This document shows positions 7,397-32,714 of a DNA stretch of 43,082 nt, piece after piece. The notes beneath the pieces are model-generated. The model saw only the letters and a list, made by a program, of their open reading frames with translations, searched no databases and was not told where the DNA came from. Numbering within the stretch: the first letter of the stretch is position 1; each line of letters starts with the position of its first letter. A program made the translations under genes and the position numbers. The DNA is taken from positions 1 through 43,082 of the IMG/VR virus record IMGVR_UViG_3300018428_000052. One strand, written 5' to 3'. This DNA comes from a virus.

Positions 7397-7404
7397 TATT
7401 TATA
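7397..7404 (-). promoter_or_regulatory. T4-type late promoter element TATAAATA
   Basis: TATAAATA on the minus strand, 29 bases before the ATG at 7367, overlaps the stop codon of the upstream tail-fibre gene. It matches the T4 late -10 consensus recognised by gp55, and gp55 is encoded in this window. Confidence 0.7.
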
Positions 7405-8983: not shown

Positions 8984-9007
8984 TTATAAACCCCTATTGC
9001 GACTTAG

Positions 9008-9015
9008 TATTTATC
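9008..9015 (-). promoter_or_regulatory. Late-promoter-like element GATAAATA
   Basis: GATAAATAC on the minus strand, 24 bases before the ATG at 8983 in the 39-base gap after the 642-aa gene. It differs from T4 TATAAATA only in the first base, and the same variant recurs at 13672-13679. Confidence 0.55.
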
Positions 9016-9022
9016 TGTTTTG

Positions 9023-10951: not shown

Positions 10952-10953
10952 TG

Positions 10954-13038: not shown

Positions 13039-13653
13039 TTACCCCTCGTTGAAACCAGTTAATGATTGTACTCTTACAGTGTAATCAATTTGTATAAGTC
13101 TGTTTAATGACTTTTGTATAGGATGGAAAATTACATGTGTCAGCAAACGACCTTGACCATCTGGATCATAACCTCTTAAACCAAGTTCGTCAAACACATA
13201 TAAACTTTCAGTACTACTAGCAGTATCAAATGCGTCTTGTCCATTAGGCTCACCGTAGTCTAATAAACAAGATACTAATATGTCTGTATAGTTTGTACCA
13301 CTAACATGACGAATATCAATTTTATTACGTGCCGGATCTATGTTATTAACACTTCTATCGTCAACAACTTTAGTAAAAGTTTGGTTATACAAACTTGCAT
13401 TTGTTCCTGTGCTGTTTGGTGTTAGGTAAGTAATAATTCCTGTTGGATCTAAACTAGTTCCGCCGTTACCAAAGCTCATTTCATGTACCCAGCCCTGGCC
13501 TGCATTACTTAAACTTTCTGCAAGAGCAATACTCATATTTTCATAATGTATTGCATTACGCTTATTAAGTAGTATTTCTCCAGAATCTGGATCATGAATT
13601 TTTACATGACCTTCTAAAAATATACCTTGTTTATCAAAAAAATTGTCTGCCAT
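13039..13653 (-). CDS. Putative virion/baseplate protein
   Basis: This 204-residue protein has no domain that I can name. It has a mixed beta-type composition, with HVKIHDPDSGEILLNKRNAIHYENMS near the N-terminus and a C-terminal VIFHPIQKSLNRLIQIDYTVRVQ. It lies between the giant baseplate protein and the tail fibres, so a connector or fibre-attachment role (the place of T4 gp8-gp11) is plausible but not shown. AGGA stands 8 bases before the ATG, and a GATAAATA element 18 bases upstream gives it and the fibre run their own late start site. Start choice is secure. Confidence 0.7.
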   Translation of the reverse strand: MADNFFDKQGIFLEGHVKIHDPDSGEILLNKRNAIHYENMSIALAESLSNAGQGWVHEMSFGNGGTSLDPTGIITYLTPNSTGTNASLYNQTFTKVVDDRSVNNIDPARNKIDIRHVSGTNYTDILVSCLLDYGEPNGQDAFDTASSTESLYVFDELGLRGYDPDGQGRLLTHVIFHPIQKSLNRLIQIDYTVRVQSLTGFNEG

Positions 13654-13671: not shown

Positions 13672-13679
13672 TATTTATC
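13672..13679 (-). promoter_or_regulatory. Late-promoter-like element GATAAATA
   Basis: GATAAATAC on the minus strand, 18 bases before the ATG at 13653 and overlapping the stop of the giant gene. It is the same variant as at 9008-9015. It would start late transcription of the 204-aa gene and the tail fibres. Confidence 0.55.
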
Positions 13680-16600
13680 GCGGTAATTCAATACTCTTTC
13701 CACGTAAGAAAGTTGCTACTTCTGTATTAGACTGACCTAGTGGTTTATACGTTCCTGTTGTTTCGTCTATAATTTCATTCCAAATTAAACCTTGATTTCT
13801 AACTATAGTTAGCACTGTATTTGGTTCTGGAGGTGCAGTTAGGCGTACATATGCTCCGACATTTTTGTTAACTGCATATTCTGCTTGTAACCAAACATCG
13901 CCATCTGGGCTAAACTGACCTTCGTTTACATCGTAAACTTTAATTGGATTTTTACGAAGTCTACGACCATTTGCAAATACCTCAATATCTTGCGCCTCCC
14001 AATATACTTCTGGGATTCCTAAGTTTTCAAATGCATCCTTGTACCATCCTGTTTCAGTTGCTGGATCCCAAGCGCCTGAACTTGCAGGATTAGGATACGG
14101 AGCAAATGGTAACAATATTTGTACATATGGTAGATACTTAGTAACAACTAAAGTAGTTGAAGGTCTAAATATTGGATCTGTTTCTACTGGATTAATAATT
14201 ACTAAATCGTATGCTCCTACAGGTAATGCTGGAGTTACAAATTGTAACTGTGTTCCACTTATGTATGTTGTTTCACATTTAACATCTTGTACTAATACAG
14301 TTACTCCTTCACGGAACCCTTCTCCGTCTACTGTTGCAATTTGCCCACCTAACGGAAATACTGTATTATTATTAAAGTTATATGCAATACTTGTTACACT
14401 TATTTCAGGACTATTATCCGGATACACCAATGACATATCCTTATATTCTCCTGCAAGTGCTATTACTTCTTCTTGTCTGTCTTTATAAGGAATTGAACTA
14501 TCTACACTTTGATTATAGAATTTAGTACCTGCTTCATAAAGATCTTTAACGCCTGTACCTAAAGTTCCTCTACGTAATTGTTTTAATACATTACCTTCTC
14601 TTCTAAAGAATTCAATACGCTCTCCTTCAATAAAGATTACACCTGGAGTATTTCCTTTTGGATCTGGTGTTGGTAGATTTCCTTCTTGTTCAACTACAGT
14701 AATACTTCTATCATACCAATTTAATGGTTGTGCTAAAGTATATTGATCTTCACTATTTAAACGCTTGTAATGTGTACGATTTAACATATCTTTAAATTGT
14801 CTCCAACCAAACTTATTGGATATTGGAGGATTACTAAAGTGTATAATGTCAATAGAATCGCCATCATTTACTGGTGTAATAAACTCAATGTATTGTTTAT
14901 TTTCTAATAAAATATAATCAGCAGTTGGCGTTAACCATTTATTGTTTAGTGCTACCCAAACATAATCAACACCGACAGCTTCTTGTCTTAGTTTAATTAA
15001 ACCTCTTTTTAAACGTCTATAATCATAATATCCTTGTGATTGATATGTCATTTCAGTACGTTGTACTATATCATAATTTTCTCGTTCTATTCCTTGACCA
15101 TCATGATTGCTAAACTGGTATACCCTTATAATATCACCTTCTTCATAAGTAGCATCAAAATGAAGTACTGGAGTTATACTATCACTTCCTGATGTGTCAA
15201 CAAAAATATCATTTTCGTCCCAATAGCCAAATCTATATTCGCCGTCGTCCATAACATAAACTTTTAGTTCATCGCCGGCAGCAGCAACACCTCTATTAAG
15301 AATTACAGTACTACCTGGTTGTGCATCATCACTAATATTAGGATTAAATGCTGTTGCACCTTCAAATGTCCATTCTTGTAAAAATTCAAGTTCTCTGCCA
15401 TTTAAGAAAACTTTCATATGTGTTCCTGATAGTGTACCTACCGGAACTTGCCATACTTTCATTCTATATTCTAATACATCTTCAAGAACTGTAAACGACT
15501 CACTATATCCTGCATTTAGAAGTTTATCGTTAACTGTTACAATTATGTTAAATGAATCTGGTTCTTGATTAAATGGTGCTCTTGACAATTCGTAACTAGT
15601 GGAAGAGCCGTCTGCTATAATTTCATCTACTGTAACTTGGCTAAATGAATCAATTTCACCGTCAAATAATCCATATTGTATTAATCTATTTTCTTCTGGT
15701 GGTTGAACAAAACGTATAACACAGTTGCCTGGTACTTCGTATGTTTCGTCAGACTCAATTAAATCAAATGCTTGATATTCGCCATTAACTGTTACATACG
15801 CATGAGCTGTTTCACTATAAGCAATACCCGTTAAATAATCTTGTGTTACACCGTCAGCTGTAAATTCATCATAATCTAGAACATTCTCGCCGCCTATGCC
15901 CATACTAATTATTGCAATATTATCATTATCAGCTGGCGGTGTATAGAATATTACTTGATTATTATCATAATCAATTTTATACTTAGACTTGCCATATACA
16001 ATTTCATAGTTAATTTTAACAATAACACTTTCGTATGAGAATGGACGTTGTTTTAATGTAAAGGTAGTTGTTGAACCATCACCTTTAAACAGATAAGTTT
16101 GCATTAAACTAGATCCACTAACTGGACGTTCATACACTGTAATGTCTAGTGCATCAAGTACTTGTCCAGGAATAGTTTCTTCTGGACCTTTACTTGTTGT
16201 TGGTGTTACAAATCCATCACCATCAACATTAATTTCTTCTGCATTGATACCTAATGCTGTTGTATAAGCTAAGTCGCCGCCTTCTAAAGCAGTATCAAAA
16301 CTTTCTTCATTGGGTTTTAACGAACCGTCCGAAGTAGTTCTACGTATTGTTATAATTTCTTTTGGCGGATTATCTCTCCATCCAGGACTAAGATCATCTA
16401 AATATTTGTAATAACCTGTTTGGTTTTCAAAAGTAAAAGTATCAGTTATACCATCACCTATTACCGGAGCCATAAATGCTTTTTTGTTTGCTAGATTATC
16501 AGCACTTGTTGTTCCGTCCCAACCGTCGTCATCTACACGTTCACCATTAATGTAAACATTATATTTTACACCTTTTTGTAACGGAGAGCTTAATTCGAAT

Positions 16601-19600
16601 ACTAATGTACTACCGTCTGTTTCGAATGATTCTTCATCAAAACTTTCGTCAAATATATCCCAAGCTCCGGTATACCAATTGTCTGTATCCCAACCGGTAG
16701 GTCCAGCAAATTCAAATGATTTAACTTGTACGCCGCCATAGTCAACACCGTCCATTAACTGAGTAATATCTTTACCTATTTGTCCGCTAGTTGGATTATA
16801 GAATAAATTAATTCTATCTTGTGCATCTAACAACCTAACTGACTTTTTGTAGTTTACTTCAATTACTGAATTATTTTTTGGCGGATCGTTAAATATAACT
16901 TTCCCATAGTATTTGTCAAAGCCGCTTTCTGTATTGAGATAATTGTCGTAAGTATATTGACTATTAAGTACAAGTTCACCGTTAACAGTAACTTCAACTG
17001 TATTGGTTCTCATATCCATAGGCCAGCTAAGATCGTATTCTGTCTTAGATGCAGTTCCTAAAAACTGTTCTGTTTCATTTAATTGTGTAATAAAGAAAGT
17101 TCCGCTTACTCTATCAAACTTAACAGTGGTATGAGTTGTTCTAACTAAACTATCTCCTATCCTAGCTGAAACTCTTGCTGGATGTCCACCATCTTCAATA
17201 GAACCATTTAGTGTTACCTTTGGAGCAGTAATATATCCACTTCCTGGATTTGTAATAACTATACTAGAAATTTTACCACCTGGGCCTAAAGAGGCCTTTG
17301 CAGTAGCATCACCTTCAATTGTAACAATAGGCGCACTAGAATAACCTGCTCCTGCATCTGCTATAGAAATTTCAATAACTTTATAAGAAGCATTGTCTAC
17401 CCAAAACTTATTTGGGTATGAAGTGTAATTATCAAATGTTCCAGATAAGAATCCGTTAATAACTCTTATGTCACTAACTTCAATGTTGTTAGTTTCTCTT
17501 TCAAATCTTGGAGGATTATCAAAATCAGTAACAGTACTTTGTGAGCTTTCAACAGTTGTATAATCGGAAACATATTCTCTAATTTTAGTTTTATAAGGTT
17601 TAACTTCGTTAATATAATCCTCATAACTAGATAATGCATCATTTTTATATGTAACACGATTACTTAATTTTCCAACATTATGTCTTGCTTTAACAAAACT
17701 AGTTTTAAATGCCCAATCAACATAACCTTGCTCTGCAAATACATAACGTAAACTTGCAAAGAATAATTTATTATATTCGTCTGCTAAATCATTAACTAAG
17801 ATATCATCTCTTAATGCTTCTAAAATAATTCTTGTTTCTGCTATTGGTTGACTATCAAAGAATTGGGTATCAAATGTATTTGTATCAAAGCCAACTCTAC
17901 TTAAATTAAAGTTATACAAGTTATCACTTAATTTTATAGTTCCGTTTTGTTTACCAATTGTTTTATAGTTAACTGTATAGTCTATTGTATCTTGATTATC
18001 AATCTTTTCAAGCAATAACCAACCATCGCTGCCAACATTTAAAATTTTAACAACGTCACCAAATTGATCATTAATACTTTGTAGTCCATAACTTTGTTCA
18101 ATTACATGATCAATTTCTGTAAATTCGTTATAGCCAGTATCGTACCAGTCAATATAATTCCAATACTTGGTTACATCGTATGCTTGACTTCCAATTCTAT
18201 TCCATTCTCTTGCTTCAATATCTCTACTGTATAAAGCCCAATTACCTCTAATTTGACTGTCAGCATTAACAAGAACTGTAAATGGACGTACTTCTATTTC
18301 TGTATTTTCGTTATAATTGTATCCTGTGTTTAATACATTAACTTCAGTTATTTGACCAGCTGTATTAATTACTATATCAAATTCAGCATCTGCGCCAAGC
18401 CCTGTAATTTCATACGTAGGAGGAACTTTATAACCTCTACCCGAATTTAGAATATCAACACGAACCACTTTACCATCTTGTACAATAGGTAATAATTCTG
18501 CCGTAATTAATCTTGATACACCTACAAATTCTAAGTCAATTTCAGTGTCTACTTCAACATCATAATGCCTTGACACTAAAGTAGGAGCAGGGTCATAATC
18601 TAAAAATGCTGATATATTTTTTTCGTCAACTATTAAGTTGTCTTTAAGAACAATATTAACACGTTCAACTAACTGTTTAAGTGCTTCTACTTTATTAATA
18701 AACCAGCTCTGTCTTGGCTTATTAAGAATTCCGTATTTTTCTTTAACACTTAGGTTAGGATCAGGAACTGGTCTTATTTGTTTGTCGTATCCAATTAAAC
18801 TGTCAAACCATTTTTGTTCAATTTCTTTATACGGTTTACTTGTATCTAACCCTTCTGACAATATTTGATATTGATTGTGTATATTACTAAACTTATCGCT
18901 AAATGTCCAGTATTGAATATTTAATACAGTATCTTTATCTTTGATATATGCATCACAGTTGTGCAATGCAAAAGAATTATTGCCAAAGAAACTAATAAAT
19001 TTATATCCTTGTGCTCCTGGATCTTCAATTAATTTTGCAATAGTTTCTACACTAAGAGATCTATTTTCTACTGAAGGTATAGTTGTTTTATTCTTAACCC
19101 AGTAATAGTAATAAGATGTAAATGATTGTGCAATTTTATCATATACACGTTTTTCTACATAAACATCTTTTCCGTATTTTGTAGTACCAGTAACTCCTTT
19201 GCTTTCGCCTTCTGGCTGAGCAGACAATTCGTCCCACTTTTCAGGCTTTAATTTAGATTTTACCCATTCATACACATCAACTGATGCGCCTTCAAATAAA
19301 GTATTAAAATTATTACTTTTATAAACTATATTGTCTTCTATGTACGTATTTAAGAATTTGCTAGTTGTTAAATCCCACCATACTTGACCTACTTGTGCTT
19401 CTCCCCATGATTCAGTTTCATCAACATCAAGATCTGAAGTTCCTAAAGAATAAGTTGCTGGATCAAATATTGTTTTCCAGCGAATTTCTTGATCAGCTGG
19501 TCCTGCAATTTTTCCTTGCACTGGGTCAATGTAATCTAAATTTTCTAAGATAACATTTTTATTACTATCATAAAGCATTACACGTTTTATCTTATCCACA

Positions 19601-22600
19601 TCAACTGGTAATGCTGGTTTACGATATGTTTCCCAAACTCGAGTAGCATCTGATCGTCTATAATCAAGAATTAGACCAAGTTTATTGGTTGATACTCCGT
19701 CACTATCTTTATTATCATATGTTGGAAGACTAACATACATATGATTATTTTTAACACTAATATTACGTCCAAAATATCTTATATTTGGATCATTAAGATC
19801 AAGTGTTTGACCAAACACTAAACTATCTTCTATTCTATCATAAACATATACAACACCATTATTAGCAATAGTATTCTTAAATGATGTAAACCCACTGTCA
19901 AAGGTAGTAGCAGTTGTTCCTGCACTATTTGGATCTAATATATACTTTTTACCGTTAACATTACTTTCAGGAAATAAACGCTCTTGATAGGTATCAAATT
20001 GTGTCACATCATCGCTTGGTGCGCTAAATGCACTAACAAATAACATACGTCCATCAAAATCAATGTTTCCTCCAAATTGCTCTCCTCTAACTGGGTTAGA
20101 ACTTACAAGTGTTTGAGTTAATTCAAACTCTCTTACACCTATTGCAGGATTATATGTATAAACATATACTGTGCCTCTTTCTTCGCCATCTTCAGTATTC
20201 GAGTTTGGAGCAGAAACTGCTACCATAGTTCCGTCTTGACTTACACTAACTTGATTTCCAAATTCATCATTATCTTGAGTGGTTACAAATTCTTGATATT
20301 TTTGATAGTTGCCGTTAACATTTCTATATAGTATTACTTTGTTTGGTCCGTTATTATATTCTGCGGTAACTGCTAAAACTTCGCCGTCGTCACTTATATC
20401 AAAATCTTTACCAAATGATATTAAGCCGTCTTGTTCAAGTTTTAAACTAGAATCATTACCAGGAACATTATCAGTATTATTAGGAATAAATCCAACAAAA
20501 TCTACACTCCTAATACTATCGCTGGTAGACAAACTCCAGTCGAGTATATTAAACTTGTCTCCTGCTGCAATATTAGTTTGTGCAGTATAGAATTCACCAT
20601 CATTAAATATAATATCGTTTAGATAATAATCTCTATCTTCACTAAAGCTACCTTTATATCGCTTGTCTTTTGCAAGTTCCCAATTATAAGTTAGTCCTTC
20701 TTCGTCAGTACCGTTATTTAAGAAATAGATGCGCCCTGGGTTTTCTTCAGTACCATTTCCTTTACAGCCAATAAATGCTCTATAAAAATCGTTTTGTTTA
20801 GCAATCTTAATTTTAGAACCAATTTGTAATTCGTCAATTTGATCTGGAACAATAAAAGATCCTAAAGGTGTAAATGTGCTTACATTTTCTCTAACATATA
20901 TTGAATAAGACCCATAGTTGTTAAGAGGAAGTGCAACACCATTTGCATTTACAGGAACTCTAAAAACGTTTTTCCAGTTTAAGTTTACTGATGACGGTAT
21001 ATTTGGTTCAGTAGGCAATCCTAAAATTTCACTGTCTTTATAGATAATATATTCTGCCCCAATAATTGTATCGTTTACTGGAACTTCATCAATTTCTGTA
21101 TCAAGTTGGAATACGCAAAGACCGCCAATTCCTAAATTTTCTGAACCTAGTGAAACTGTCTTAATGTCGCCTAAAGGTCTTGTAACATTATAAATTGTTG
21201 AAGGATTGTTTGGAATCCTTAACATTTCAAGTATAGCAGGTTGTCCATTATCAGAACCTAATGACCAAGGATTTTCTCCAGCAACATTTTTAACAAAAAT
21301 AGTTGCTTCGGCACTATCTCTCTGATAAAAAGTTATTTGTGCAGTTGCACCTGTATTTTGATCTCTTACAAACTGTCCAACTAGAGGTTCAAATCTACGA
21401 CCAAAATCATCTGTTTCGTCTAATGCAAATTTAATGTATCCGTCCCATAAGTCATATAACGTATGAGTTTTATTAGTGTCAAAGTAATTTAATCCGGAGT
21501 CAGTAATGTCAACAAACGAACCATCATTTAAATTAGCAAAATTTAAAACTCTTAAACCAACTTTATCGTTATTTTCATCGCCTGGAGCAACTACGTCTAA
21601 AATATCTGTTAGACTCTTTGGAGCTCTAACTACAAACAGGTCACTTTTAATAATATCAAACTCGCCGTATGCTCCTGGTTCGCCTTCGGACGTTAATGTT
21701 CTAATATAACTGTTTTGATTATTATCGCCTGCAAATAATTCTGTATTATTATAATCCCATATATTTCCGCCAGCTGCGTCTACTGGATCTTTGCCTGCTG
21801 GAACAATGTTATATATTGCTAAGGCTCTACCTTCATCTTCGATAACGTCACCTGATAGTATTGGTTGTGGAGATGAAAACTCTTCAGGTCTATTAAATAG
21901 CCAATATCCACCTAGTTCGTCAGTTGTATCTACTTCTGCAAGTTCTTTAGGAGCATTACGAACATACTGTCCAAGGAACTCTCCTGTTTCTAAGAATACA
22001 GAATTAGTTTCCTGCCAAGTACCTACAGATCCAGTAACGTAAATTACTACACTAGGTCCTTCTTGATATGTATAAGCTACATAACCAAACACACCTTGTG
22101 ATTCTATCTGATCTCCAACATTAGGAATCTGAGAAAATGCATCTATATATAGCACAACATCGATTTTGTTTTGTATTACTAAACCGCTTTCTAAAAATTC
22201 TTCAGTTACCCAAGGTAGTCCTTCGCCGCCAAACGGCTGTCTAAATAAATTATTAGGATCTTGCTGTTGATTTGCAGAAGTTTCCGCATACCAATCTAAA
22301 TAAACAGTATCTCCAATGCCAGTAGCCCTATATTGATCTGCTCCTGCTCTTACTAAAATATGATCTGCTTCTGTATTTTTAAACGGATAGTTGCCTGCTA
22401 ATAAATTATTAAATTGTATTTCGCCAGAAGTAATATTATTGTCTACAATAACTTCAACCATTGCAGTAAAGCTACCAAATGGTTGAGATAAATTAGCACC
22501 TTGAATATCTACTATAGCTTCCCATAACTGTTCTTCATAAGATACAATTTCAGTATTTTGATAATCAGCTGTTGGATCATATTCACCTTTAAATTTAGTT

Positions 22601-25600
22601 TTTACATTTGAAGAGTTAGGCGAGCCAACAATCAAATACTTTCCGTCTGAACTAATATCAATACCTTTACCAAATCCTTTATTAAGATCTGATATTGTTG
22701 ATATAGGTTCAATTATTTGCGTAAATTGGAAGTTTTGATTATTCCCGCCTCTAGTGTATAAGAAAACTTTTCCGTCATTGCCAGCAGTTGGCGATGCTAC
22801 TGCTAATGTAACGTTTCTACTATCAACTGCTAAACTACTTGCAAAATTATTGTTAATGCCTAATTCTTCTCCTGGAATTCTTTGCAATAAGTTGTATGCC
22901 TGAGTATTTCTAAGAACTCGCCATTGATTTCTATCATCTGTGTCAACCCATAACAAATCATTTTTATTAATTCCTTCTTGTGCAATTTTGTTTGCATCGT
23001 TATATGTATTTGCCCTAACTGGGATAAACTTAGATACTATGCCTCTACATTGATTAATATCTGAAATTACTTTATCTGTCTCAATAATAATTTCATTTAC
23101 ACTAACTTTAAGAACTTTAAAGAATCCGTCAGTATCCGAAGAAGTTTGTTTTGCAATAGGATATGTACTATCTTGTGTTGCATAACTTGTCTCAATAAGA
23201 TCGTATATGCCAATAATGTCACCTGGTACAATATCAGTTGTTGATGTGTCAAGTGTAATTGTAAATTGATTTTTATCTGCGGCGCCAATACTAATTGCAG
23301 TTGCGTTACCTTTTATACTTGTAATAATATAAGAAGAGTTTACATGTTGATAAACTGACCAATCACCGTTTCTATTTCCTACCCAAACATATTCCTTATT
23401 TTTAACCTCAGTAAATGATTTATTTACAATATCATCATAGTTTGCTACTGTAATAGCAATATCTTCAATATGTGTATAACCTGCATCTCTAGTATATTGA
23501 GGTAAAGACTCTGTTACAGGAAATGGAGTATTATTATACTTTGCCGGTTTCTTAAATACACTGAAATCAGGAATTCTATATACTAAATCTGTTTCTTCGC
23601 CAGTAATATCATTAGTAAGCAAGAATGGCTGAGGATTAGATCTAATAAGTGATTCGTCTAGTTTAAATTCAACTTCATCAAATCCTTCGCTTGCGCCATA
23701 TTGACTTTGTTTAATTGCCCATTCTTCGTAAAAATCAATACTTTCTTTATCATTTTCACTTAAAACATCAAATAATTTATTAAGACTGTTTAGTGTGCCT
23801 TTTTCTTTAATCATTCCTTGATAGAATTTATATTGGCTTACATCGTCATTAATAATATTTGCTAGATAGTTTCTATTTTGATAACCTATTAAGTGTTGTG
23901 CATATTTTTGCTGCTCAATATCAAAGTTATCTGTATCTAGATCATAGAAATCTGCAAATTGATTAGTTTTATATTCAAAGTTTGTTAACAATCTACTTTC
24001 TGGTTTTTCAGATAGACGTGACCAATATTTGTCATCAAATAAAAGACTTCCTGGAACCTTTTCATTTGCACTATAAAAGAATTGTTTATGTTTAACTAAA
24101 TCGCCAATAGAATAGTCTTTCCAAGATTGCCATTCAGTAATTATTGCTTCATCGTATATAAACCCAGGGACATTTAAACTTCCGTCCCAATCAACGGTTC
24201 TATATCCTAGTGTACGAATTCTATCTTGACGATATCCAGTTGCTGGCTGATAGATAATATCTCCAAATACAGTAGTATTATCTAGTATTACTATATGCTC
24301 TTTTCTTATAATAGGAATTTGTACTGCATATACTCCATCGCCTGTTTGTTTAGGACGAATTTTAAACTTATTTGGTTCTTGTCTGCTAATGCGAGTAAAT
24401 TCTTCTACTAATTTTGTACCATCAGATTTAAGTAAACTATAACCATAGAAGTTATCAAAAATATTGTCAACTGTTGAATATTCAGTTTGGAAGTTTATTT
24501 CGTCTGCAACAGGACTCAACGCAATAAGTGCGCCTTCAGACCAATTCTGCGTAGTCCAGAACATAAACTCACGACAGCTATTTTTCCAATCTGATAGTAC
24601 TTTTTCCTCGCCGTCATAATATTCAAATCTAAAACCTTGTTCTATTAGCCACTGTTCGTAACCTAATAAAAAGTCTACAACGTCTTGAATTGTTCTTAAA
24701 TTAGTTCCGTAAGGTAAAATTTCTTCATCAAACTTATTAAATCTCACTTTAAAAGTTGCATCGGCTCCTCCAATTGTAGGAAGTTTTGGAAGTTTAGTAA
24801 ATTTTGAAGAATCAAAACTTAATGCTGCTGTATGTGTTTCTATTACACTAAAAAATGAATTTTGATGCTGTACTATCTTTCCTTTATTATAAAGTTGTCC
24901 AGCTTCCCATTTAGAAAAACTTTCTGAAATTCCTCCAACATTAATCGTTACATCTTTATTAGAACTAAACGGACGATACCATTTAAATACCGGATTCTCT
25001 TTATTATAACCTCTTATAATAAAACCAGACGGACGTTTTTCTACAATAACACCGCTATAATTAACTGTTTTTATTGGAGAACTAGTATGCAACGCTATAT
25101 TATAATTTTCTTCTGGAATGAACACATTGCCACTATTTAAAGGTGTTCTAGACTCTAAAATTAATTTAAACTTACTCTTATCTGTAAATCCACCTAATTT
25201 AAAAGCAAGACAGTTTTTAATAGATTTAAGTTTACGTTTATAATCATCAAAATTTGAAGTTACACTACTTGACATAAACGCTGAAATATAATTAACTAAT
25301 CCAGATGTAAGTACTTGTGTAGAATCTGCTGAGGTATTTGGAAATACTAAATCAGATAATTTTATATGGTCCATAGTTGGTTTATATACTAAATGACCAA
25401 GAGTATTTCTAATTTGCCTAGATCTATCAAATCCTGCTGATAGCAAAGAACTAGGAGAATTAATAATCCAACTTGTTAATAATGCAAAAGGAAATTCTGA
25501 ACTTTGTCTCCAAGCATTTTCAATAGGAGAATTATCTCCAAATACAAAAGAAGAATCTAAACCAACACTAGCAAATCGTTGAGTTGCGTTTGAGTCTGAC

Positions 25601-28600
25601 GGACTTAATAAGTTACCATCTCTGTCTACTGGTAAAAATTTAGTTAGTCCTGGACGAGCATACTTAGAATTGATTTTAAAGGGCTCTCCTGGTTTTCTAA
25701 TAATTCCTTTTTCTAGGTCTTCCCACATTAGTAAGTTTTCGCTAGTATAAGGAGCAGGGCCGTATTGTTCCTCCCACCATGTAGGTTTAATTGTATATCC
25801 TAGCATTTCCCAAGGTTGTGTATGAGGACGATCTGTATCAAATAGTTGACGATAAACTCCTCTCCACCAGCCTGCTAATTTTTCACCAGTTGGTGAATTC
25901 ATACTTGAATAATTCCAAGTAAAAGAATCTATTCTATCAAAATATCTATGTTCAGTATAATCTTCGTCTATTAACTCTAACCATTGAACAAAATCAGTAA
26001 TCATTGGACTATATACTTCTGTCCTAGAAAATTGTGTATTTCTAAAAGTACTTGGCAAATAATCGTGTATGTTTAAAATCTTAGGATCGTATTCAGTTTT
26101 TATATTATTAAAAATACGTTTTTCTAAATCTAAAATTAAATCATCTCTGTAATCATTAAATGCTTTAGTTAAACTTCCGTCGTGTCCTCTTATAATTAAT
26201 GGAGCATCGGCATATGTGTCATCAACAAAAATTTCAGGAACATATTTAGGAAAGAGTCCTAGTTTAGTAGGAGTAGACGGTATATATGTGCCATTAGTAT
26301 TTTCATATTCATTAATTTCTAATGTATCACCAAACTCCTTTTCAACTGTTACTTCTAAATATCCTTCACTATTAAAAATATAATCACGATTATGAAGTAA
26401 TTGAACACCGTTTAAATAAACTGTTACTGCACGAGTACTTAACTCAGTTAAATCAAATGGTGTAGTAAGTGCAAAAAATCTAGTATCTTTATCTTCAATC
26501 AAAATTTTAGTAGTAACTGCTGCGCCATAACCGATCATATCTGAAAAGTAAAATGGCATAGAATTAATTTTATCTTTAGTAATTTCTTCAATTATTTTAT
26601 CAACATGCCCTCTAACAGTTCCGCTATAACTAATAGATTCTGCTGCTTCTAAAAATAATCTTTTAAATTTACTATATTCCTTTTTAGAAAATCTTAGAGA
26701 TTTAACAATGTTTGATTCTTTATCTAAAGTTGAAAATAGTGCAAGATTTAAAGGTGCAGAATGTTTAATAAATTTTCTACCGTATGCACTTAGATTTTTT
26801 ATATCTCGTAAATTACTAACTCCAGGAAATACTCCGTTAAAATTAGGAGTATTTTGTGTAATACTACTTACATGGTCTGTAACTTCACCTAAAGTAAACG
26901 TTGAGATATTTTCATTTAGAGGATTTTTTTCTAAGTTTGGTGCAATATCATAATAACCGTTTTGATTTTTAGGAGTACTTGAACTTGTCTTAATTAGAAT
27001 ATTAGCATTCTGTTCAACACTGTTTAAAAATTTAATTGCTTTAATTTTATCTGCTGTATTAACTAATTCATAATCAGTACCTTCGTACACAATAACGTTG
27101 TCTACAAATACTTTAACTTTTAAGTCAGTTAAAAATGCACTGTTATTATAACAATCAATTGGATATTGTAATCTTGTACCGTCGTTTACATATTGTAATA
27201 TTACTTCTTGCTCACTAAGCGCATCTGTTTTAACATACGCTCCTAGTAATTCATATCCTAAATCAGGAATATATCTTCTTAGATATCCGTTACTAACATT
27301 AATATTATATAATTCATCATCAATTTGATATTGTACTATGTCAGTATTAAAATCAAAGTTAAAAACAATATCTCCAACATTATTAATACTTCTATATGCT
27401 ATTGGAAATCCTAAAACAGAATCGTTACTACCAGTTCCCTCTTTATAACTAAAAATTTTAGTTCCTCTAAAACTATTAGCAGGATAAACATTTGTATTTG
27501 AATAACTGTAGCCGTCTACATCAAAAATATCAAATACAGGAGGTTGATTTACTGCTGTTTTTTCTTGTGCTCTATTCCAATCTGTTCCGTCATAATACCA
27601 CATAGATCCAGCATAACTTTCACCCCTGGTAATTAAAATGTTTTCACCTGATTGAGGATCTGAATCAGCAGTTTCAACTAAACTAATTTGTCCGTCGGAT
27701 CCGCTTCCTGTAAACTTAATAAATCTAACTTCAAATATTTTACCTCTAACTAAAGGATCGGTATCTGCTAGAAATACAATTCTCATACCTTCTACAAGTT
27801 GTACACTGTCAATGTTATAACCTAGACTACCTTCTATAGTACTAAAAGCATCAGTAGTAAAATTGTCAAGTAAGTCAACTACTTGTTTTGTCTTTGTACC
27901 AAAATTATAAAGTTTTAATCCGTCTTTGAATTCAATAATTGGTCTGTTAGCACGTTGGCTTTGATCAATATCTAAAACTAAATTATTAATTTCTGCTGAT
28001 AACTCAATAACACTTCTATGAAACCATCTATTGTATCTAGACCAAAAATTTCCATCTGGGCTAGAACGGTTAATAGTAATATAATCTTTATCTCTAGGAT
28101 ATCCAGTTGCAGATCCAAATGGTAAACTATCAAATCCATCAACACCGTCATCAAAAGGTATTAATAAATCAATTCCTACTGGAAAAGAAACTTCTACGTC
28201 AATGTCAGAAACAAGTTTAATTGCATCGCCAACACCTTCTACATACCATTCACTATCAGCAAATTTTGAAGGAGTAACTTCGCCTGAAAATCTTACTTTA
28301 AGACCGTTTGTTAAACTCCATCCATCTCTAGTTTGATAATACTTTTTACCTAAAATTTCCGACTCAACATCAATAAAACTAGCTTCGTCTTGATTAGCAA
28401 CTTTAATTAGTCCACCAATATTAATATCGTTGTCTGCAACATACCATATTTCATTTGGTGTTCCTGGGCCAAGTAATAATTCGATTACTCCGTTTTCTAC
28501 TCCTTGTTGAGATACTTCGTCTACTAGTAAAAATTCATCTTCTAATGTTCTAGCAGATCTAAAAGTAAACGGCAGTCCGGGGGTGTTAATTTCAAATCTA

Positions 28601-29217
28601 TACTTTACACCTCTATACAATTTTAATGTAGGATTATTTGTTGCTCCATCAGGAGTAAACACATAAGAATAGTCTCCAAGAGCATTTTGTAATTCAACAG
28701 TATATGTACTTGTAATTTCTTTTGACTCTCCTGGAATAACAACAGTTTGTGGTCCTGTAGGAAGCCAATAATATTCACGGAAATTTGTAAGCATGTCCCA
28801 ATTGATATTAGGGTTCCAAGCATAGAATTCTTGTTTATTATTTCTACTATGATTTTTATTGTCGCCACCAAAATTCTCAATTTGGTGAATATAATCCATA
28901 TAGTCTCTTAAGAATTCTGTATTTCCTAAATTGTCCTTTACAATACTAACTGGTTCTAGTTGATAATTAGTTCTGTCAGCAGTTACATCTTCAAGATAAG
29001 AATCAGTAGTTGAGTTAAATGCCTTTGCACTTTTTCTTCCTACAAATGAATTAACTTTTTCTGATACTCCAGGTTGTAGTAATTGGTCTAACGTAGATTG
29101 TAAAAACTTAGTATTTTTCTCAGTTCTAAAATATTTGGGTAAGTGTCTAGCACTTTCTCTACGCTGTGGCACTTCACCTGGAAGTGGATATTCATTTTGC
29201 TTATTATCGTCAGCCAT
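13675..29217 (-). CDS. Giant 5180-residue modular baseplate protein (gp7 position)
   Basis: A single uninterrupted frame of 15.5 kb. It lies directly after gp6 (5-base gap), where T4 has gp7 (about 1,030 residues), so it may be an expanded wedge component. Visible modules: a unique N-terminus (1-700); FG-GAP-like propeller blades near 2119-2203 and 2934-3172 (FGKGIDISSDGKYLIVGSP, FGKDFDISDDGEVLAV, FGNQVSVSQDGTMVAVSAP), split by about 730 residues; GxGYxxxPxVxxxG repeats near 3590-3635 and 3950-4004; a run of short modules (FxLxxP..VxVNG..Y.....VxFxxPP) over about 4050-4780; and an IPT/TIG-like Ig domain near 4935-5022. There is no signal peptide. A host-contact or baseplate-periphery role is inferred. 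Coding is certain; the gp7 homology is a positional guess. Confidence 0.85.
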   Translation of the reverse strand: MADDNKQNEYPLPGEVPQRRESARHLPKYFRTEKNTKFLQSTLDQLLQPGVSEKVNSFVGRKSAKAFNSTTDSYLEDVTADRTNYQLEPVSIVKDNLGNTEFLRDYMDYIHQIENFGGDNKNHSRNNKQEFYAWNPNINWDMLTNFREYYWLPTGPQTVVIPGESKEITSTYTVELQNALGDYSYVFTPDGATNNPTLKLYRGVKYRFEINTPGLPFTFRSARTLEDEFLLVDEVSQQGVENGVIELLLGPGTPNEIWYVADNDINIGGLIKVANQDEASFIDVESEILGKKYYQTRDGWSLTNGLKVRFSGEVTPSKFADSEWYVEGVGDAIKLVSDIDVEVSFPVGIDLLIPFDDGVDGFDSLPFGSATGYPRDKDYITINRSSPDGNFWSRYNRWFHRSVIELSAEINNLVLDIDQSQRANRPIIEFKDGLKLYNFGTKTKQVVDLLDNFTTDAFSTIEGSLGYNIDSVQLVEGMRIVFLADTDPLVRGKIFEVRFIKFTGSGSDGQISLVETADSDPQSGENILITRGESYAGSMWYYDGTDWNRAQEKTAVNQPPVFDIFDVDGYSYSNTNVYPANSFRGTKIFSYKEGTGSNDSVLGFPIAYRSINNVGDIVFNFDFNTDIVQYQIDDELYNINVSNGYLRRYIPDLGYELLGAYVKTDALSEQEVILQYVNDGTRLQYPIDCYNNSAFLTDLKVKVFVDNVIVYEGTDYELVNTADKIKAIKFLNSVEQNANILIKTSSSTPKNQNGYYDIAPNLEKNPLNENISTFTLGEVTDHVSSITQNTPNFNGVFPGVSNLRDIKNLSAYGRKFIKHSAPLNLALFSTLDKESNIVKSLRFSKKEYSKFKRLFLEAAESISYSGTVRGHVDKIIEEITKDKINSMPFYFSDMIGYGAAVTTKILIEDKDTRFFALTTPFDLTELSTRAVTVYLNGVQLLHNRDYIFNSEGYLEVTVEKEFGDTLEINEYENTNGTYIPSTPTKLGLFPKYVPEIFVDDTYADAPLIIRGHDGSLTKAFNDYRDDLILDLEKRIFNNIKTEYDPKILNIHDYLPSTFRNTQFSRTEVYSPMITDFVQWLELIDEDYTEHRYFDRIDSFTWNYSSMNSPTGEKLAGWWRGVYRQLFDTDRPHTQPWEMLGYTIKPTWWEEQYGPAPYTSENLLMWEDLEKGIIRKPGEPFKINSKYARPGLTKFLPVDRDGNLLSPSDSNATQRFASVGLDSSFVFGDNSPIENAWRQSSEFPFALLTSWIINSPSSLLSAGFDRSRQIRNTLGHLVYKPTMDHIKLSDLVFPNTSADSTQVLTSGLVNYISAFMSSSVTSNFDDYKRKLKSIKNCLAFKLGGFTDKSKFKLILESRTPLNSGNVFIPEENYNIALHTSSPIKTVNYSGVIVEKRPSGFIIRGYNKENPVFKWYRPFSSNKDVTINVGGISESFSKWEAGQLYNKGKIVQHQNSFFSVIETHTAALSFDSSKFTKLPKLPTIGGADATFKVRFNKFDEEILPYGTNLRTIQDVVDFLLGYEQWLIEQGFRFEYYDGEEKVLSDWKNSCREFMFWTTQNWSEGALIALSPVADEINFQTEYSTVDNIFDNFYGYSLLKSDGTKLVEEFTRISRQEPNKFKIRPKQTGDGVYAVQIPIIRKEHIVILDNTTVFGDIIYQPATGYRQDRIRTLGYRTVDWDGSLNVPGFIYDEAIITEWQSWKDYSIGDLVKHKQFFYSANEKVPGSLLFDDKYWSRLSEKPESRLLTNFEYKTNQFADFYDLDTDNFDIEQQKYAQHLIGYQNRNYLANIINDDVSQYKFYQGMIKEKGTLNSLNKLFDVLSENDKESIDFYEEWAIKQSQYGASEGFDEVEFKLDESLIRSNPQPFLLTNDITGEETDLVYRIPDFSVFKKPAKYNNTPFPVTESLPQYTRDAGYTHIEDIAITVANYDDIVNKSFTEVKNKEYVWVGNRNGDWSVYQHVNSSYIITSIKGNATAISIGAADKNQFTITLDTSTTDIVPGDIIGIYDLIETSYATQDSTYPIAKQTSSDTDGFFKVLKVSVNEIIIETDKVISDINQCRGIVSKFIPVRANTYNDANKIAQEGINKNDLLWVDTDDRNQWRVLRNTQAYNLLQRIPGEELGINNNFASSLAVDSRNVTLAVASPTAGNDGKVFLYTRGGNNQNFQFTQIIEPISTISDLNKGFGKGIDISSDGKYLIVGSPNSSNVKTKFKGEYDPTADYQNTEIVSYEEQLWEAIVDIQGANLSQPFGSFTAMVEVIVDNNITSGEIQFNNLLAGNYPFKNTEADHILVRAGADQYRATGIGDTVYLDWYAETSANQQQDPNNLFRQPFGGEGLPWVTEEFLESGLVIQNKIDVVLYIDAFSQIPNVGDQIESQGVFGYVAYTYQEGPSVVIYVTGSVGTWQETNSVFLETGEFLGQYVRNAPKELAEVDTTDELGGYWLFNRPEEFSSPQPILSGDVIEDEGRALAIYNIVPAGKDPVDAAGGNIWDYNNTELFAGDNNQNSYIRTLTSEGEPGAYGEFDIIKSDLFVVRAPKSLTDILDVVAPGDENNDKVGLRVLNFANLNDGSFVDITDSGLNYFDTNKTHTLYDLWDGYIKFALDETDDFGRRFEPLVGQFVRDQNTGATAQITFYQRDSAEATIFVKNVAGENPWSLGSDNGQPAILEMLRIPNNPSTIYNVTRPLGDIKTVSLGSENLGIGGLCVFQLDTEIDEVPVNDTIIGAEYIIYKDSEILGLPTEPNIPSSVNLNWKNVFRVPVNANGVALPLNNYGSYSIYVRENVSTFTPLGSFIVPDQIDELQIGSKIKIAKQNDFYRAFIGCKGNGTEENPGRIYFLNNGTDEEGLTYNWELAKDKRYKGSFSEDRDYYLNDIIFNDGEFYTAQTNIAAGDKFNILDWSLSTSDSIRSVDFVGFIPNNTDNVPGNDSSLKLEQDGLISFGKDFDISDDGEVLAVTAEYNNGPNKVILYRNVNGNYQKYQEFVTTQDNDEFGNQVSVSQDGTMVAVSAPNSNTEDGEERGTVYVYTYNPAIGVREFELTQTLVSSNPVRGEQFGGNIDFDGRMLFVSAFSAPSDDVTQFDTYQERLFPESNVNGKKYILDPNSAGTTATTFDSGFTSFKNTIANNGVVYVYDRIEDSLVFGQTLDLNDPNIRYFGRNISVKNNHMYVSLPTYDNKDSDGVSTNKLGLILDYRRSDATRVWETYRKPALPVDVDKIKRVMLYDSNKNVILENLDYIDPVQGKIAGPADQEIRWKTIFDPATYSLGTSDLDVDETESWGEAQVGQVWWDLTTSKFLNTYIEDNIVYKSNNFNTLFEGASVDVYEWVKSKLKPEKWDELSAQPEGESKGVTGTTKYGKDVYVEKRVYDKIAQSFTSYYYYWVKNKTTIPSVENRSLSVETIAKLIEDPGAQGYKFISFFGNNSFALHNCDAYIKDKDTVLNIQYWTFSDKFSNIHNQYQILSEGLDTSKPYKEIEQKWFDSLIGYDKQIRPVPDPNLSVKEKYGILNKPRQSWFINKVEALKQLVERVNIVLKDNLIVDEKNISAFLDYDPAPTLVSRHYDVEVDTEIDLEFVGVSRLITAELLPIVQDGKVVRVDILNSGRGYKVPPTYEITGLGADAEFDIVINTAGQITEVNVLNTGYNYNENTEIEVRPFTVLVNADSQIRGNWALYSRDIEAREWNRIGSQAYDVTKYWNYIDWYDTGYNEFTEIDHVIEQSYGLQSINDQFGDVVKILNVGSDGWLLLEKIDNQDTIDYTVNYKTIGKQNGTIKLSDNLYNFNLSRVGFDTNTFDTQFFDSQPIAETRIILEALRDDILVNDLADEYNKLFFASLRYVFAEQGYVDWAFKTSFVKARHNVGKLSNRVTYKNDALSSYEDYINEVKPYKTKIREYVSDYTTVESSQSTVTDFDNPPRFERETNNIEVSDIRVINGFLSGTFDNYTSYPNKFWVDNASYKVIEISIADAGAGYSSAPIVTIEGDATAKASLGPGGKISSIVITNPGSGYITAPKVTLNGSIEDGGHPARVSARIGDSLVRTTHTTVKFDRVSGTFFITQLNETEQFLGTASKTEYDLSWPMDMRTNTVEVTVNGELVLNSQYTYDNYLNTESGFDKYYGKVIFNDPPKNNSVIEVNYKKSVRLLDAQDRINLFYNPTSGQIGKDITQLMDGVDYGGVQVKSFEFAGPTGWDTDNWYTGAWDIFDESFDEESFETDGSTLVFELSSPLQKGVKYNVYINGERVDDDGWDGTTSADNLANKKAFMAPVIGDGITDTFTFENQTGYYKYLDDLSPGWRDNPPKEIITIRRTTSDGSLKPNEESFDTALEGGDLAYTTALGINAEEINVDGDGFVTPTTSKGPEETIPGQVLDALDITVYERPVSGSSLMQTYLFKGDGSTTTFTLKQRPFSYESVIVKINYEIVYGKSKYKIDYDNNQVIFYTPPADNDNIAIISMGIGGENVLDYDEFTADGVTQDYLTGIAYSETAHAYVTVNGEYQAFDLIESDETYEVPGNCVIRFVQPPEENRLIQYGLFDGEIDSFSQVTVDEIIADGSSTSYELSRAPFNQEPDSFNIIVTVNDKLLNAGYSESFTVLEDVLEYRMKVWQVPVGTLSGTHMKVFLNGRELEFLQEWTFEGATAFNPNISDDAQPGSTVILNRGVAAAGDELKVYVMDDGEYRFGYWDENDIFVDTSGSDSITPVLHFDATYEEGDIIRVYQFSNHDGQGIERENYDIVQRTEMTYQSQGYYDYRRLKRGLIKLRQEAVGVDYVWVALNNKWLTPTADYILLENKQYIEFITPVNDGDSIDIIHFSNPPISNKFGWRQFKDMLNRTHYKRLNSEDQYTLAQPLNWYDRSITVVEQEGNLPTPDPKGNTPGVIFIEGERIEFFRREGNVLKQLRRGTLGTGVKDLYEAGTKFYNQSVDSSIPYKDRQEEVIALAGEYKDMSLVYPDNSPEISVTSIAYNFNNNTVFPLGGQIATVDGEGFREGVTVLVQDVKCETTYISGTQLQFVTPALPVGAYDLVIINPVETDPIFRPSTTLVVTKYLPYVQILLPFAPYPNPASSGAWDPATETGWYKDAFENLGIPEVYWEAQDIEVFANGRRLRKNPIKVYDVNEGQFSPDGDVWLQAEYAVNKNVGAYVRLTAPPEPNTVLTIVRNQGLIWNEIIDETTGTYKPLGQSNTEVATFLRGKSIELPR

Positions 29218-29222: not shown

Positions 29223-32200
29223 TTAATACCCTTTATTAATTCGTGTTGCGTTATCTTCAAAGTTTGTACTTTGAATTCCAGCATTAACTGTTTTTGATTG
29301 TGTAACTACTTCGCCTGAGGCTTTTAATCTAGAAGCAGTAATTGCATCTATAATTTCAATATCGTCTACACTTGCACTGCTTATAAAAATTTCATCTGCT
29401 TCTGATTTAATTTCATACAAGCTACCAAATGATTGGTCTTCCTGTACAGGAACAATAATAAACGAAGATATATCAGGAGCAAGTTGATTAATGACAAATC
29501 CCGAAAGTTCTGAGAAGTAAAAAGTTTCGCCAAAGTCCCAGTTGTCTAATGCAAAAAACTGATTAATTGCTATAATTACTCTTGTTTTAATATCATTATC
29601 ATTTAGAACTTTATCTGCATTTTTTACAATCTTAAATTTAGCTTTCAATTCTGTATCTGCTTCTTTTCCAAATAGTATCTTATACTTAACAGGATGATAT
29701 ATAACTTCGTCTGTTAATGATTTAATCTTATTCAGTGCTGATCCGTACTCAATAAACAACTGATCACTACTCGACGGTAATGGTTTTTCAATTGATTGAT
29801 CTGTAAGCCATAATCTAAAATCATTATCATAATTTCTAGTTAGCAAATACATATCAATAATATTACTTGCACTAGGATCAATTCTTGATTCAGCACTTGC
29901 TGCATGAATATAACGGAATTTTAATTTATCTCTGCCAACCCTTGCTTTATAATCAGCAGTAATGTTTAATTTAAGAGTAGATTTGTCTAGAACTTCAAAG
30001 ACATCAGTGTCAATATAATAGAAAACCTGTCCATCGTTGTATGTACTAAAGGGCTCTACTTCTGTTTTAGAATTTAAAATAATAACTTCGTCATTATCGT
30101 TGTTAAAATAATTATAATCTTCTACGCCGTCATTTGTTACTATTCTTTCAAATATAATATACTTGTTAGTTGGATTTACTTCAGGAGCAATAATTTCTTC
30201 AAATAAATCTGCATCGTCAACAATGCCATCTTCGTCGTCGTCAAAATAGCTAATTTCTAATTTTTTACTATCTACATATCCTTCTACATCTCTATATGCA
30301 TCAACTATTTCCCAATCAAAATCTCTTGTGAATGGAGCAGGATTATCTGGTTGTGGATTAATGTTCAATACAGATATACTATCTTTAACAATTTTTCCTG
30401 TTTTATTATTATAAATTTTATCGTTTGAATCATAATAAAAACGAATTTCGTTATCACTTTCAAATACAAATCTCATTGAACGATATGTAATTGTATATCT
30501 TTCTCCATTAGTTTGAAAAAGTACTAACCAACTTGCGTCAAGATTTTGATTAGTTACATCTCCGGTTTTACCTGTACTAAATTCTGTGCCTAGTGAAAGA
30601 TTGTTTTCTGTAACTATTCTCCACTCAGCATCAATTTGATCAAACCTTAAACCAAATGTTTTATATGAAAATATTTGATCTATAATTTGTTGCTTAACAC
30701 CAGTTTCTAAATTATTAGCAAGAGGTGGCTTAATTTCATATAATATACCACCTGTTGGAATAACATCATTTAATATAACAGCGCCGCGACCATCATCTGT
30801 AGGTTCAAAGCCTGTACCGTTAATTCTAATAACTTTAACCCATTTGTAATAAGTGTCGCCTAGCAACTTAGCAGGTCCTGAAACTAGCTCACCTTTAGTA
30901 TTAAAATGATTAGTCGATGTATCTGCATCTTCTGGTGCTGATTTAGCTACATATCCAGGAGCAACTACTTTAATTAAAGATCCAACTGTAACTAGACTTA
31001 AAATTGAGCCAGTAAAGCTACCTAAGGTAGAAGGGACATCTTCAATATTTTTAAAATATCCAGTACATAAGTTAGTTTCTGAAGTTGTTTGTACCCAGTT
31101 AACTCCTAGGTCTCTAGTTATAATTTTATTAAATTTGTCAAAATAAAAGTTTCTAATTTTTTTATCATTTAAAATAGGTATAATAGTATTTTCTACAGCA
31201 CCTTCTACATCTGTTCTAGTAGTAAAATTAAATCCATCTTTCTTATGTTGATACTCTTTATATACAACACCGTCATTGCCGTATAAAGTTGTTTGACTAT
31301 ATTTGCTAGTAGCATCTATTAAATCAAAATAACGACTTATACCACTTGCAACTCTATTAACACTTTTAACTTTTACAATTTGTTGATTAATACCTAATGG
31401 TGCAATTTGATAATCTTCACCTGTAACCATTCTATTTTGGGTGTAGTAAGTAGTAGGTGCATTTTGTTTAATTGATCTTGTAGTTTCACTAACTGAACTA
31501 TTATCAACAGTGTACTTTAAGTTATAAGTTATAGTAAGAGTTTCTAGTTTATTACGCTTTGAAAGATAAGGAATAGTAATTGTTATTCCTCTAAAATCTT
31601 GTGGAGTAATAGTTACTCGTTGATTTAAACTTGTTCTAAAATATGCTTTAAATTGACCTTTTGGAATATTACCAAATACCCCGTCACTAAACAGCAAACT
31701 AACTCTGTCATCTACTCTAGTCAAAACTGAATAAAGATTTCTGTCATTTTTATCTAAACTATTATAGATAACATTGTTACCTTGTAATGCATCTACTTGA
31801 GTCCAAAGTTCTTTTTCGTTTCCTAAACTATCTAACTGATATAACCAAACATCTGAATTATTAATTAATGGTGTTTCGATAGCAACTGATTGATTAGATG
31901 CATAGTTGTTGATCGTAAACACGCCTATGTCTAAAGTTCCTTGACGGAAATGACTAAAAAATCCTGTATTTGAACTAGTAGGACCCTTCCCATCATCTCT
32001 ATATAACAAAGCAAAATTATTGCCAGGGAAAGGAGCTTCTTCAAGAATAGTATCAGTAATATCAGTTGATACTATTTCAAATCGTACTGCTCTACCGTCA
32101 ATTGTTTTATTAAATTGGAAAGTTGGTACATCAGTATTAGTACTATTAAATCTATATTGCTCAGTATCAACTCCTGATATAACTGTCTTTTTTGTAGGAC

Positions 32201-32714
32201 GGCCAAAAGTTCCATTAGTTGGAAGTGCAGTATTTAAAACTTTTATAAACTGTTCATACCAATCACTATTAGCAGGATCGTTCCAAGTAATTGTTTGTCC
32301 TGATAAGTTAACATTGTTACTATCGCGAACTTCTTCAGTAGTTCTAATATTTTGAATTTTAAGTAGTCCGTTAGCAGGCTGATTACGCTTAGGATTGTAA
32401 GATAATAAACGAGCTAAACGTAACACACTTTCACGACGCTCTGCTAGTTCTAAGTAGTTTTCTCGAGCATTTAGATCAATACGATAAGAAATATTTTGAC
32501 CAAGGAATGCAATAAGATCTATTAGCGCAAGGTATTCGCTAGATTCAACATAATCATTAAAATCCTCAGGATAGTTTTCCCTAAGGTATTGAATCATTGT
32601 TCGACGTAAATTGTCGAAATCATAACTTTGAAAATCTGCATTACGAAAAGACTGATAGACTCTCTTCCAATCTTCTGCTAATAATAATCTATTTTGTCTA
32701 TCTGTAGATGACAT
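29223..32714 (-). CDS. gp6: Baseplate wedge protein gp6 (enlarged)
   Basis: gp6 forms the continuous inner ring of the T4-type baseplate and controls its change of shape at sheath contraction. Here the N-terminal hallmark is present: LIDLIAFLGQNISYRIDLNARENYLELAERRESVLRLARLLSYNPKR at about 64-110. The C-terminal part (DNDIKTRVIIAINQFFALDNWDFGETFYFSELSGFVINQ, SFGSLYEIKSEADEIFI) is also of gp6/J type. At 1163 residues it is much longer than T4 gp6 (660), with the extra length in the middle. AAGGA lies before the ATG, and TATAAATA (32738-32745) stands 23 bases upstream. It is followed by the giant gene, consistent with one wedge operon. Confidence 0.9.
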   Translation of the reverse strand: MSSTDRQNRLLLAEDWKRVYQSFRNADFQSYDFDNLRRTMIQYLRENYPEDFNDYVESSEYLALIDLIAFLGQNISYRIDLNARENYLELAERRESVLRLARLLSYNPKRNQPANGLLKIQNIRTTEEVRDSNNVNLSGQTITWNDPANSDWYEQFIKVLNTALPTNGTFGRPTKKTVISGVDTEQYRFNSTNTDVPTFQFNKTIDGRAVRFEIVSTDITDTILEEAPFPGNNFALLYRDDGKGPTSSNTGFFSHFRQGTLDIGVFTINNYASNQSVAIETPLINNSDVWLYQLDSLGNEKELWTQVDALQGNNVIYNSLDKNDRNLYSVLTRVDDRVSLLFSDGVFGNIPKGQFKAYFRTSLNQRVTITPQDFRGITITIPYLSKRNKLETLTITYNLKYTVDNSSVSETTRSIKQNAPTTYYTQNRMVTGEDYQIAPLGINQQIVKVKSVNRVASGISRYFDLIDATSKYSQTTLYGNDGVVYKEYQHKKDGFNFTTRTDVEGAVENTIIPILNDKKIRNFYFDKFNKIITRDLGVNWVQTTSETNLCTGYFKNIEDVPSTLGSFTGSILSLVTVGSLIKVVAPGYVAKSAPEDADTSTNHFNTKGELVSGPAKLLGDTYYKWVKVIRINGTGFEPTDDGRGAVILNDVIPTGGILYEIKPPLANNLETGVKQQIIDQIFSYKTFGLRFDQIDAEWRIVTENNLSLGTEFSTGKTGDVTNQNLDASWLVLFQTNGERYTITYRSMRFVFESDNEIRFYYDSNDKIYNNKTGKIVKDSISVLNINPQPDNPAPFTRDFDWEIVDAYRDVEGYVDSKKLEISYFDDDEDGIVDDADLFEEIIAPEVNPTNKYIIFERIVTNDGVEDYNYFNNDNDEVIILNSKTEVEPFSTYNDGQVFYYIDTDVFEVLDKSTLKLNITADYKARVGRDKLKFRYIHAASAESRIDPSASNIIDMYLLTRNYDNDFRLWLTDQSIEKPLPSSSDQLFIEYGSALNKIKSLTDEVIYHPVKYKILFGKEADTELKAKFKIVKNADKVLNDNDIKTRVIIAINQFFALDNWDFGETFYFSELSGFVINQLAPDISSFIIVPVQEDQSFGSLYEIKSEADEIFISSASVDDIEIIDAITASRLKASGEVVTQSKTVNAGIQSTNFEDNATRINKGY

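Follow-up and report, generated by a model that had tools for sequence, protein, structure and literature searches.

In the contractile tails studied so far, the receptor-binding protein complex is generally attached to the baseplate wedge protein BW3 (T4 gp7, A511 gp104, pyocin PA0619 and P2 gpI), Milano being an exception, and BW3 locks to two gp6-type chains (PMC10811340). XM1 gp17, called an orthologue of T4 gp7, has 242 residues, as compared with 1,032 in T4, and keeps the core-bundle helices (PMC10457771), so a BW3 protein can lack most of T4 gp7. Giant proteins have also been detected by mass spectrometry in the virions of several jumbo phages. phAPEC6 gp245 (381.9 kDa) is represented by 17 unique peptides and is listed directly after the wedge protein gp244 (PMC7247149), CBB_236 is represented by 21 peptides (PMC5259590), and the record of PA5oct gp355 carries an electrospray ionization tandem mass spectrometry note, which identifies it as a virion protein. 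The sources on these three phages assign the giant protein no function. Here we report the anatomy of a 5,180-residue member of this family, encoded in the linear IMG/VR record IMGVR_UViG_3300018428_000052, the source of which we read as a marine jumbo phage; the whole record, 43,082 nucleotides, is the window analysed. Our comparisons suggest that the protein is probably the gp7/BW3 equivalent of the baseplate wedge, in which a conserved core is interrupted by a large, propeller-bearing insertion.

The gene (13675..29217; all window features described here lie on the minus strand) encodes a protein with a calculated mass of 585.6 kDa and an isoelectric point of 4.6. It matches PHROG 10938 ('virion structural protein', profile length 3,324) piecewise, with E values down to 1.4e-155, and the homologous core extends along most of the length of the family. 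A tblastn search revealed the same gene in PA5oct-like, Atu_ph07-like, SCTP-2 and RaK2/121Q-like jumbo phages, at 24–29% identity; the relatives comprise 3,857 (PA5oct gp355), 4,449 (Atu_ph07 gp180), 3,807 (SCTP-2 gp140) and 3,323 (121Q gp582) residues. By sequence, the protein thus belongs to a family of giant virion proteins that is known but has no assigned function. Presence in the virion is shown for homologues only, namely PA5oct gp355 and phAPEC6 gp245, and probably CBB_236, which is a probable family member because it adjoins the gp6 protein CBB_237.

The gene directly follows the gp25-type and gp6-type genes, in the slot that is shared by PHROG 10938 and T4 gp7/BW3, and its assignment to the baseplate cluster and the gp7 slot in the initial annotation is borne out. 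The giant relatives likewise adjoin a gp6-type protein wherever annotated (121Q, PA5oct and Atu_ph07). The same gp25–gp6–giant order is found in the cyanophages S-B05 (4,024 residues, annotated as T4-like gp7), Syn19 (6,483 residues) and S-WAM1 (6,737 residues), where the third protein is gp7, which supports the gp7 reading here. These Kyanoviridae giants resemble the window protein in gene order, the gp7 core motif (putative in the window protein), the GsGY domains (PHROG 2885/701) and very large size. They differ in that their T4 gp7 motif is detectable by a hidden Markov model (HMM), whereas their sequence match to the window protein is limited to the GsGY domain. The protein is 5.0 times as long as T4 gp7, in line with the earlier estimate of about fivefold; contrary to what had been supposed, its size is not exceptional for this gene slot, given that cyanophage gp7-slot proteins reach 6.7k residues and the jumbo relatives 3.3–4.4k.

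To compare the family with gp7, we built a gp7 core profile from T4 residues 640–800 and the corresponding cyanophage and Stenotrophomonas phage segments, and used hhalign to scan the family alignment with it, in 126 overlapping windows of 160 residues. The best-scoring alignment windows, within residues 1681–1920, all cover residues 1748–1825, with a score of 30.4 (mean 12.4, s.d. 3.7), and the next independent region scores 19.6. The best score of 11 column-shuffled profiles on any alignment window was 23.6. The hhalign probability for this region against the T4 helical core-bundle motif (T4 ~643–760) is low, at about 38%, and we therefore regard the match as suggestive. The gp7-like motif so located (residues 1746–1825, ...YLANIINDDVSQYKFYQGMIKEKGTLNSLNKLFDVL...; 23743..23982) aligns as YL...KGT..S...LF..L in all four distant families, with KGT kept out to 121Q. 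The cyanophage giants were recognized through a helical KGT/KGI motif (T4 ~733–760): in a six-sequence search, to which the E values refer, the T4 gp7 HMM matches S-B05 at residues 187–218 (E = 6e-7), Syn19 at 696–723 (E = 5e-6) and S-WAM1 at 706–732 and 3570–3598. In S-WAM1 (7883–20078 of the segment compared), the second match (T4 866–894) lies ~2,840 residues beyond the first, so this protein could represent a gp7 that is interrupted by a giant insertion at a similar site.

What the window protein has in common with T4 gp7 and the other BW3 proteins is its gene position, its expected partner gp6 and, suggestively, one helical motif found by profile. Homology to T4 gp7 hinges on this single motif of ~80 residues, for which the profile–profile comparison is suggestive, and the presence of a gp7 core motif within the giant protein is moderately supported. 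The proteins differ greatly in length (1,032 residues in T4 gp7 and 242 in XM1 gp17, as compared with 5,180 here), and the other T4 gp7 parts that we tested were not found.

To define the core, we aligned an HMM of the marine orthologue set to the PA5oct, Atu_ph07, SCTP-2 and 121Q proteins. The first part of the core (residues ~15–1990; 23248..29175) is colinear with all four distant proteins, and the second part (residues ~3190–3910; 17488..19647), which also matches all four families, contains a Gly-rich GsGY domain (residues ~3573–3645) common to the cyanophage PHROGs 2885/701. Between them lies an insertion of ~1,200 residues (~1991–3190; 19648..23247), defined by comparison of the core flanks. 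The same flanks are separated by ~93 residues in 121Q, ~316 in PA5oct, ~387 in SCTP-2 and ~1,510, without a propeller, in Atu_ph07; across 132 proteins, the span between the modelled flanks ranges from 258 to 1,649 residues. Thus, the RaK2-like and PA5oct-like giants (121Q gp582, phAPEC6 gp245, PA5oct gp355, Atu_ph07 gp180 and SCTP-2 gp140) share with the window protein the slot, a colinear core of ~2,700 residues and the KGT motif, and differ in their length (3.3–4.4k residues), the absence of an FG-GAP propeller at the insertion site, their C-terminal arrays and a core identity of ~30%. The SCTP-2 core has an extra insertion of ~100 residues (18776–21973 of the SCTP-2 segment compared) with, by eye, two CBM5/12-like modules; the window protein has none at that site.

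Judged by its sequence, the insertion carries an integrin-type FG-GAP propeller of about seven blades. Blades 1–2 (residues ~2115–2205; 22603..22875) were identified by a motif scan, an integrin alpha-6 match and HMM matches in relatives, and blades ~3–7 (residues ~2796–3190; 19648..20832) by the repeated blade motif (Pfam FG-GAP_2, E = 8.3e-9) and an integrin alpha-L match; the two integrin profile matches have E values of 0.001–0.008. Five copies of the FG-GAP motif were found by pattern, at residues 2182, 2935, 2986, 3048 and 3149, and two further blades by eye. A CBM-like stretch near residues 2855–2895 falls within the region of blades ~3–7, and this stretch and blade 3 were assigned by eye. 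The propeller shares sequence motifs with integrin-type FG-GAP propellers, but here it is split after blade 2 by a nested insert of ~590 residues (~2206–2795; 20833..22602), which was delimited by its presence or absence across relatives. Among 113 relatives whose insertion is long, 112 carry this insert, Atu_ph07 being the exception, and all 15 that combine a propeller with a short insertion lack it; some contigs are counted more than once in these numbers. Dereplication left 80 proteins with the core, propeller and nested insert, 14 with the core and propeller, and four with the core only. We considered the 14 proteins as ancestral intermediates and rejected this idea: in the core tree they fall into two groups, both within the nested-insert clade, the earliest branches of which bear the insert, so the simpler interpretation is that at least two clades have lost it.

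The first CBM5/12-like module lies in the first part of the core (residues 1437–1480; 24778..24909) and matches Pfam PF02839 (E = 5.2e-8, ~1437–1464) and the chitin-binding domain of chitinase A1 (1ed7, E = 0.015); it is also present in PA5oct and absent from 121Q. In a predicted model of residues 977–1995 (mean predicted local distance difference test score 76.7), Foldseek superposes many chitin-binding domains at 1.7–2.7 Å, with probabilities of 0.97–1.00 and E values of 0.08 or weaker; among them, 46-residue domains match at 1.7–2.5 Å with a probability of 1.00. The assignment to the CBM5/12 ChiA1-type fold, by a sequence motif above the Pfam cut-off and a model fold match, is thus shown by both sequence and predicted structure, whereas that of the propeller is shown by sequence. 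A second CBM5/12-like module (residues 1687–1740; 23998..24159), recognized by alignment, pattern and HMM matches in marine relatives, is confined to the marine lineage, being absent from PA5oct, Atu_ph07, SCTP-2 and 121Q in the alignment.

Comparison with the distant families identified the C-terminal 1,270 residues (~3911–5180; 13678..17487) as a lineage-specific array of small beta modules, including a TIG/IPT immunoglobulin-like domain (residues ~4952–5009; 14191–14364; Pfam TIG, E = 2.7e-7). When four C-terminal stretches were searched, only ~4616–4905 had a counterpart, in PA5oct. Sequence searches of the PDB returned nothing credible for the array and no match for the N-terminal 1,000 residues, and a BFVD structure search returned mainly phage structural proteins, Atu_ph07 among them. 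The mosaic of propeller, immunoglobulin-like and Gly-rich modules described in the initial annotation is therefore real, in the form of the FG-GAP, TIG and GsGY domains.

These features suggest a model for the giant protein as a wedge component. By analogy with T4 and other contractile tails, there would be one copy per wedge and six per virion. The conserved core would be the structural part that docks on gp6, its helical segment at ~1746–1825 packing with two gp6 copies to form the wedge core bundle. The propeller insertion (~1990–3190), together with the CBM5/12-like modules and the beta array at the C terminus, would form arms at the baseplate periphery, which may serve as docking sites for the downstream-encoded fibre proteins and may also contact surface glycans. 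Forces acting on the arms could then be relayed by the core to gp6, gp25 and the sheath, and so trigger contraction. The host-surface sensor or baseplate shell suggested in the initial annotation would be a conjecture that goes beyond these results. In the simplest version, the core performs the gp6 locking, and the insertion and C-terminal arrays would extend the binding of the receptor complex. More tentatively, gp7 of large T4-related phages may contain a plug-in zone after the gp6-binding motif, in which large lineage-specific modules are inserted. The propeller with its nested insert here, the unrelated ~1,500 residues in Atu_ph07 and the ~2,800 residues in S-WAM1 would be cases of it, a joint reading that we consider possible and rather doubtful. 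If it is true, the baseplate itself, beyond the fibres, diversifies for host contact or fibre docking.

The giant size of proteins in this slot was already known; the core and insertion anatomy, the propeller with its nested insert, the CBM5/12 modules and the gp7-motif match are new. Our literature search found no prior account of which part of these proteins corresponds to gp7 or where the additions sit, and no paper linking FG-GAP, phage and baseplate. For giant virion proteins of several jumbo phages, which had no assigned role in the sources consulted, the tie to gp7/BW3, the location of the motif and the separation of variable parts from the core provide a testable model for the growth of jumbo phage and cyanophage baseplates, and name the residues that structural biologists can seek in cryo-electron microscopy maps. 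They also illustrate how a protein can grow as insertions are nested at fixed points, and natural relatives without the inner insert exist.

CBM5/12 domains are best known for chitin binding, and FG-GAP propellers often bind ligands, which counts against the view that these modules serve protein docking only and make no contact with the host surface. This view, which is compatible with the gp7 reading, nevertheless has only slightly less than an even chance of being correct, as this small fold is also found in the Milano tail spike gp124, in the module that binds the tail (8fqc and 9rkv, with matches to residues 80–118; PMC10811340), and in All3316, a baseplate protein from the injection system of Anabaena (7b5h).

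Several results weigh against the identification of the giant protein as gp7. The T4 gp7 HMM had no HMMER match in the jumbo family, and T4 gp7 is represented by a single short motif, which is predicted to be helical with low confidence. In hhalign sliding windows, the pre-motif part, domain V and domain VI of T4 gp7 remained at background, and full-length or large-slice comparisons with a T4-only gp7 alignment gave probabilities under 1%. Foldseek searches of the PDB with the models of residues 977–1995 and 3175–3930 found no gp7 match, the latter no match at all. Furthermore, PHROGs files the family under 'head and packaging', and the family evidence reaches virion presence only. The protein could accordingly be a peripheral baseplate scaffold or fibre-network protein, with a core derived from an unrelated virion protein recruited beside gp6 and the gp7 function residing in a different protein that escaped detection. 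We consider this unlikely: the cluster shows no other candidate for gp7, the match to the profile is specific in its position and exceeds all shuffles, and cyanophages have an HMM-detectable gp7 in the same slot. The equivalence to gp7/BW3 thus remains the probable reading. A gp7 identity holds for the slot, as noted in the initial annotation, and, suggestively, for the helical motif that tops the core-profile scan, and fails for the HMM and fold searches and for the remaining parts of T4 gp7, of which the pre-motif part and domains V and VI are specific to T4-like gp7. A W...HxVG segment near residue 3840, by eye like 'SRWKSDVIRFVHPVG' in T4, was dropped because its sliding-window scores were only background.

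A tail whisker or decoration fibre, with long beta arrays forming hair-like fibres along the tail, is quite improbable. In its favour, whiskers or hairy fibres whose composition is unassigned occur on CBB (PMC5259590) and phAPEC6 (PMC7247149), and small beta modules are arrayed along the C-terminal 1,270 residues. Against it, the gene belongs to the operon for the baseplate wedge, and what is conserved is a large core and not a repeat of fibre type. An assembly chimera joining several genes, for which we found no supporting point, is refuted by the orthologues and by the continuous frame in cultured relatives and independent contigs. The unbroken 15.5-kb frame noted in the initial annotation encodes a single real protein: it runs from ATG to stop over 5,180 codons with no internal stops, no tandem DNA repeats indicative of an assembly artefact were present in the sequence, and the frame is stop-free at the match site in all 41 further, longer contigs searched, ~30 of which span the full-length frame of 5.0–5.5k residues. 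Twenty full-length orthologues from other contigs (4,999–5,525 residues, 44–77% identity) align colinearly with the window protein, with few gaps and small indels.

The surrounding genes form a baseplate cluster. At higher coordinates, upstream of the giant gene, are genes for the gp6-type wedge protein, the expected binding partner (29223..32714; PHROG 10646, E = 2.6e-294; T4-gp6 family PHROG 219, E = 1.4e-19), the gp25-type wedge protein (32770..33225; PHROGs 261, 43 and 975), a gp5-type hub/lysozyme, a virion structural protein and a gp53-type protein. Enlargement extends to the gp6-type protein, which has 1,163 residues as compared with 660 in T4, and the protein in the gp6-type place of SCTP-2 has 3,096 residues (6636–15926 of the SCTP-2 segment compared). 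In 121Q, a gene for an intron-associated HNH endonuclease lies between gp25 and gp6 (6261–7025 of the 121Q segment compared).

Downstream, a 204-residue protein occupies the gp8 slot (13039..13653; PHROG 11259, E = 5.2e-68) and has counterparts comparable in size and location in PA5oct, where the protein was detected by mass spectrometry, and in SCTP-2. It is followed by three consecutive fibre/spike genes (7400..13035), identified by PHROG tail-fibre matches, the products of which are candidate ligands of the wedge protein; one has a phage Collar domain (PF07484). In an alignment, the three proteins share an N terminus of ~125 residues (GQLWYD...GDLW.D...LVGP) and differ in their C termini; a shared N terminus would be expected of proteins that dock on one and the same partner. 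Also in the tail cluster, adjacent 370- and 309-residue proteins (5322–7367) have segments in common by eye (DHRR.FFNAGG.I..SATL and GNY.LTT.YQ.IF) and are likely to be paralogues. Beyond the tail cluster is a radical SAM protein gene (403–1785), and a radical SAM gene of Atu_ph07 lies likewise just past its tail cluster (34187–35245 of the Atu_ph07 segment compared).

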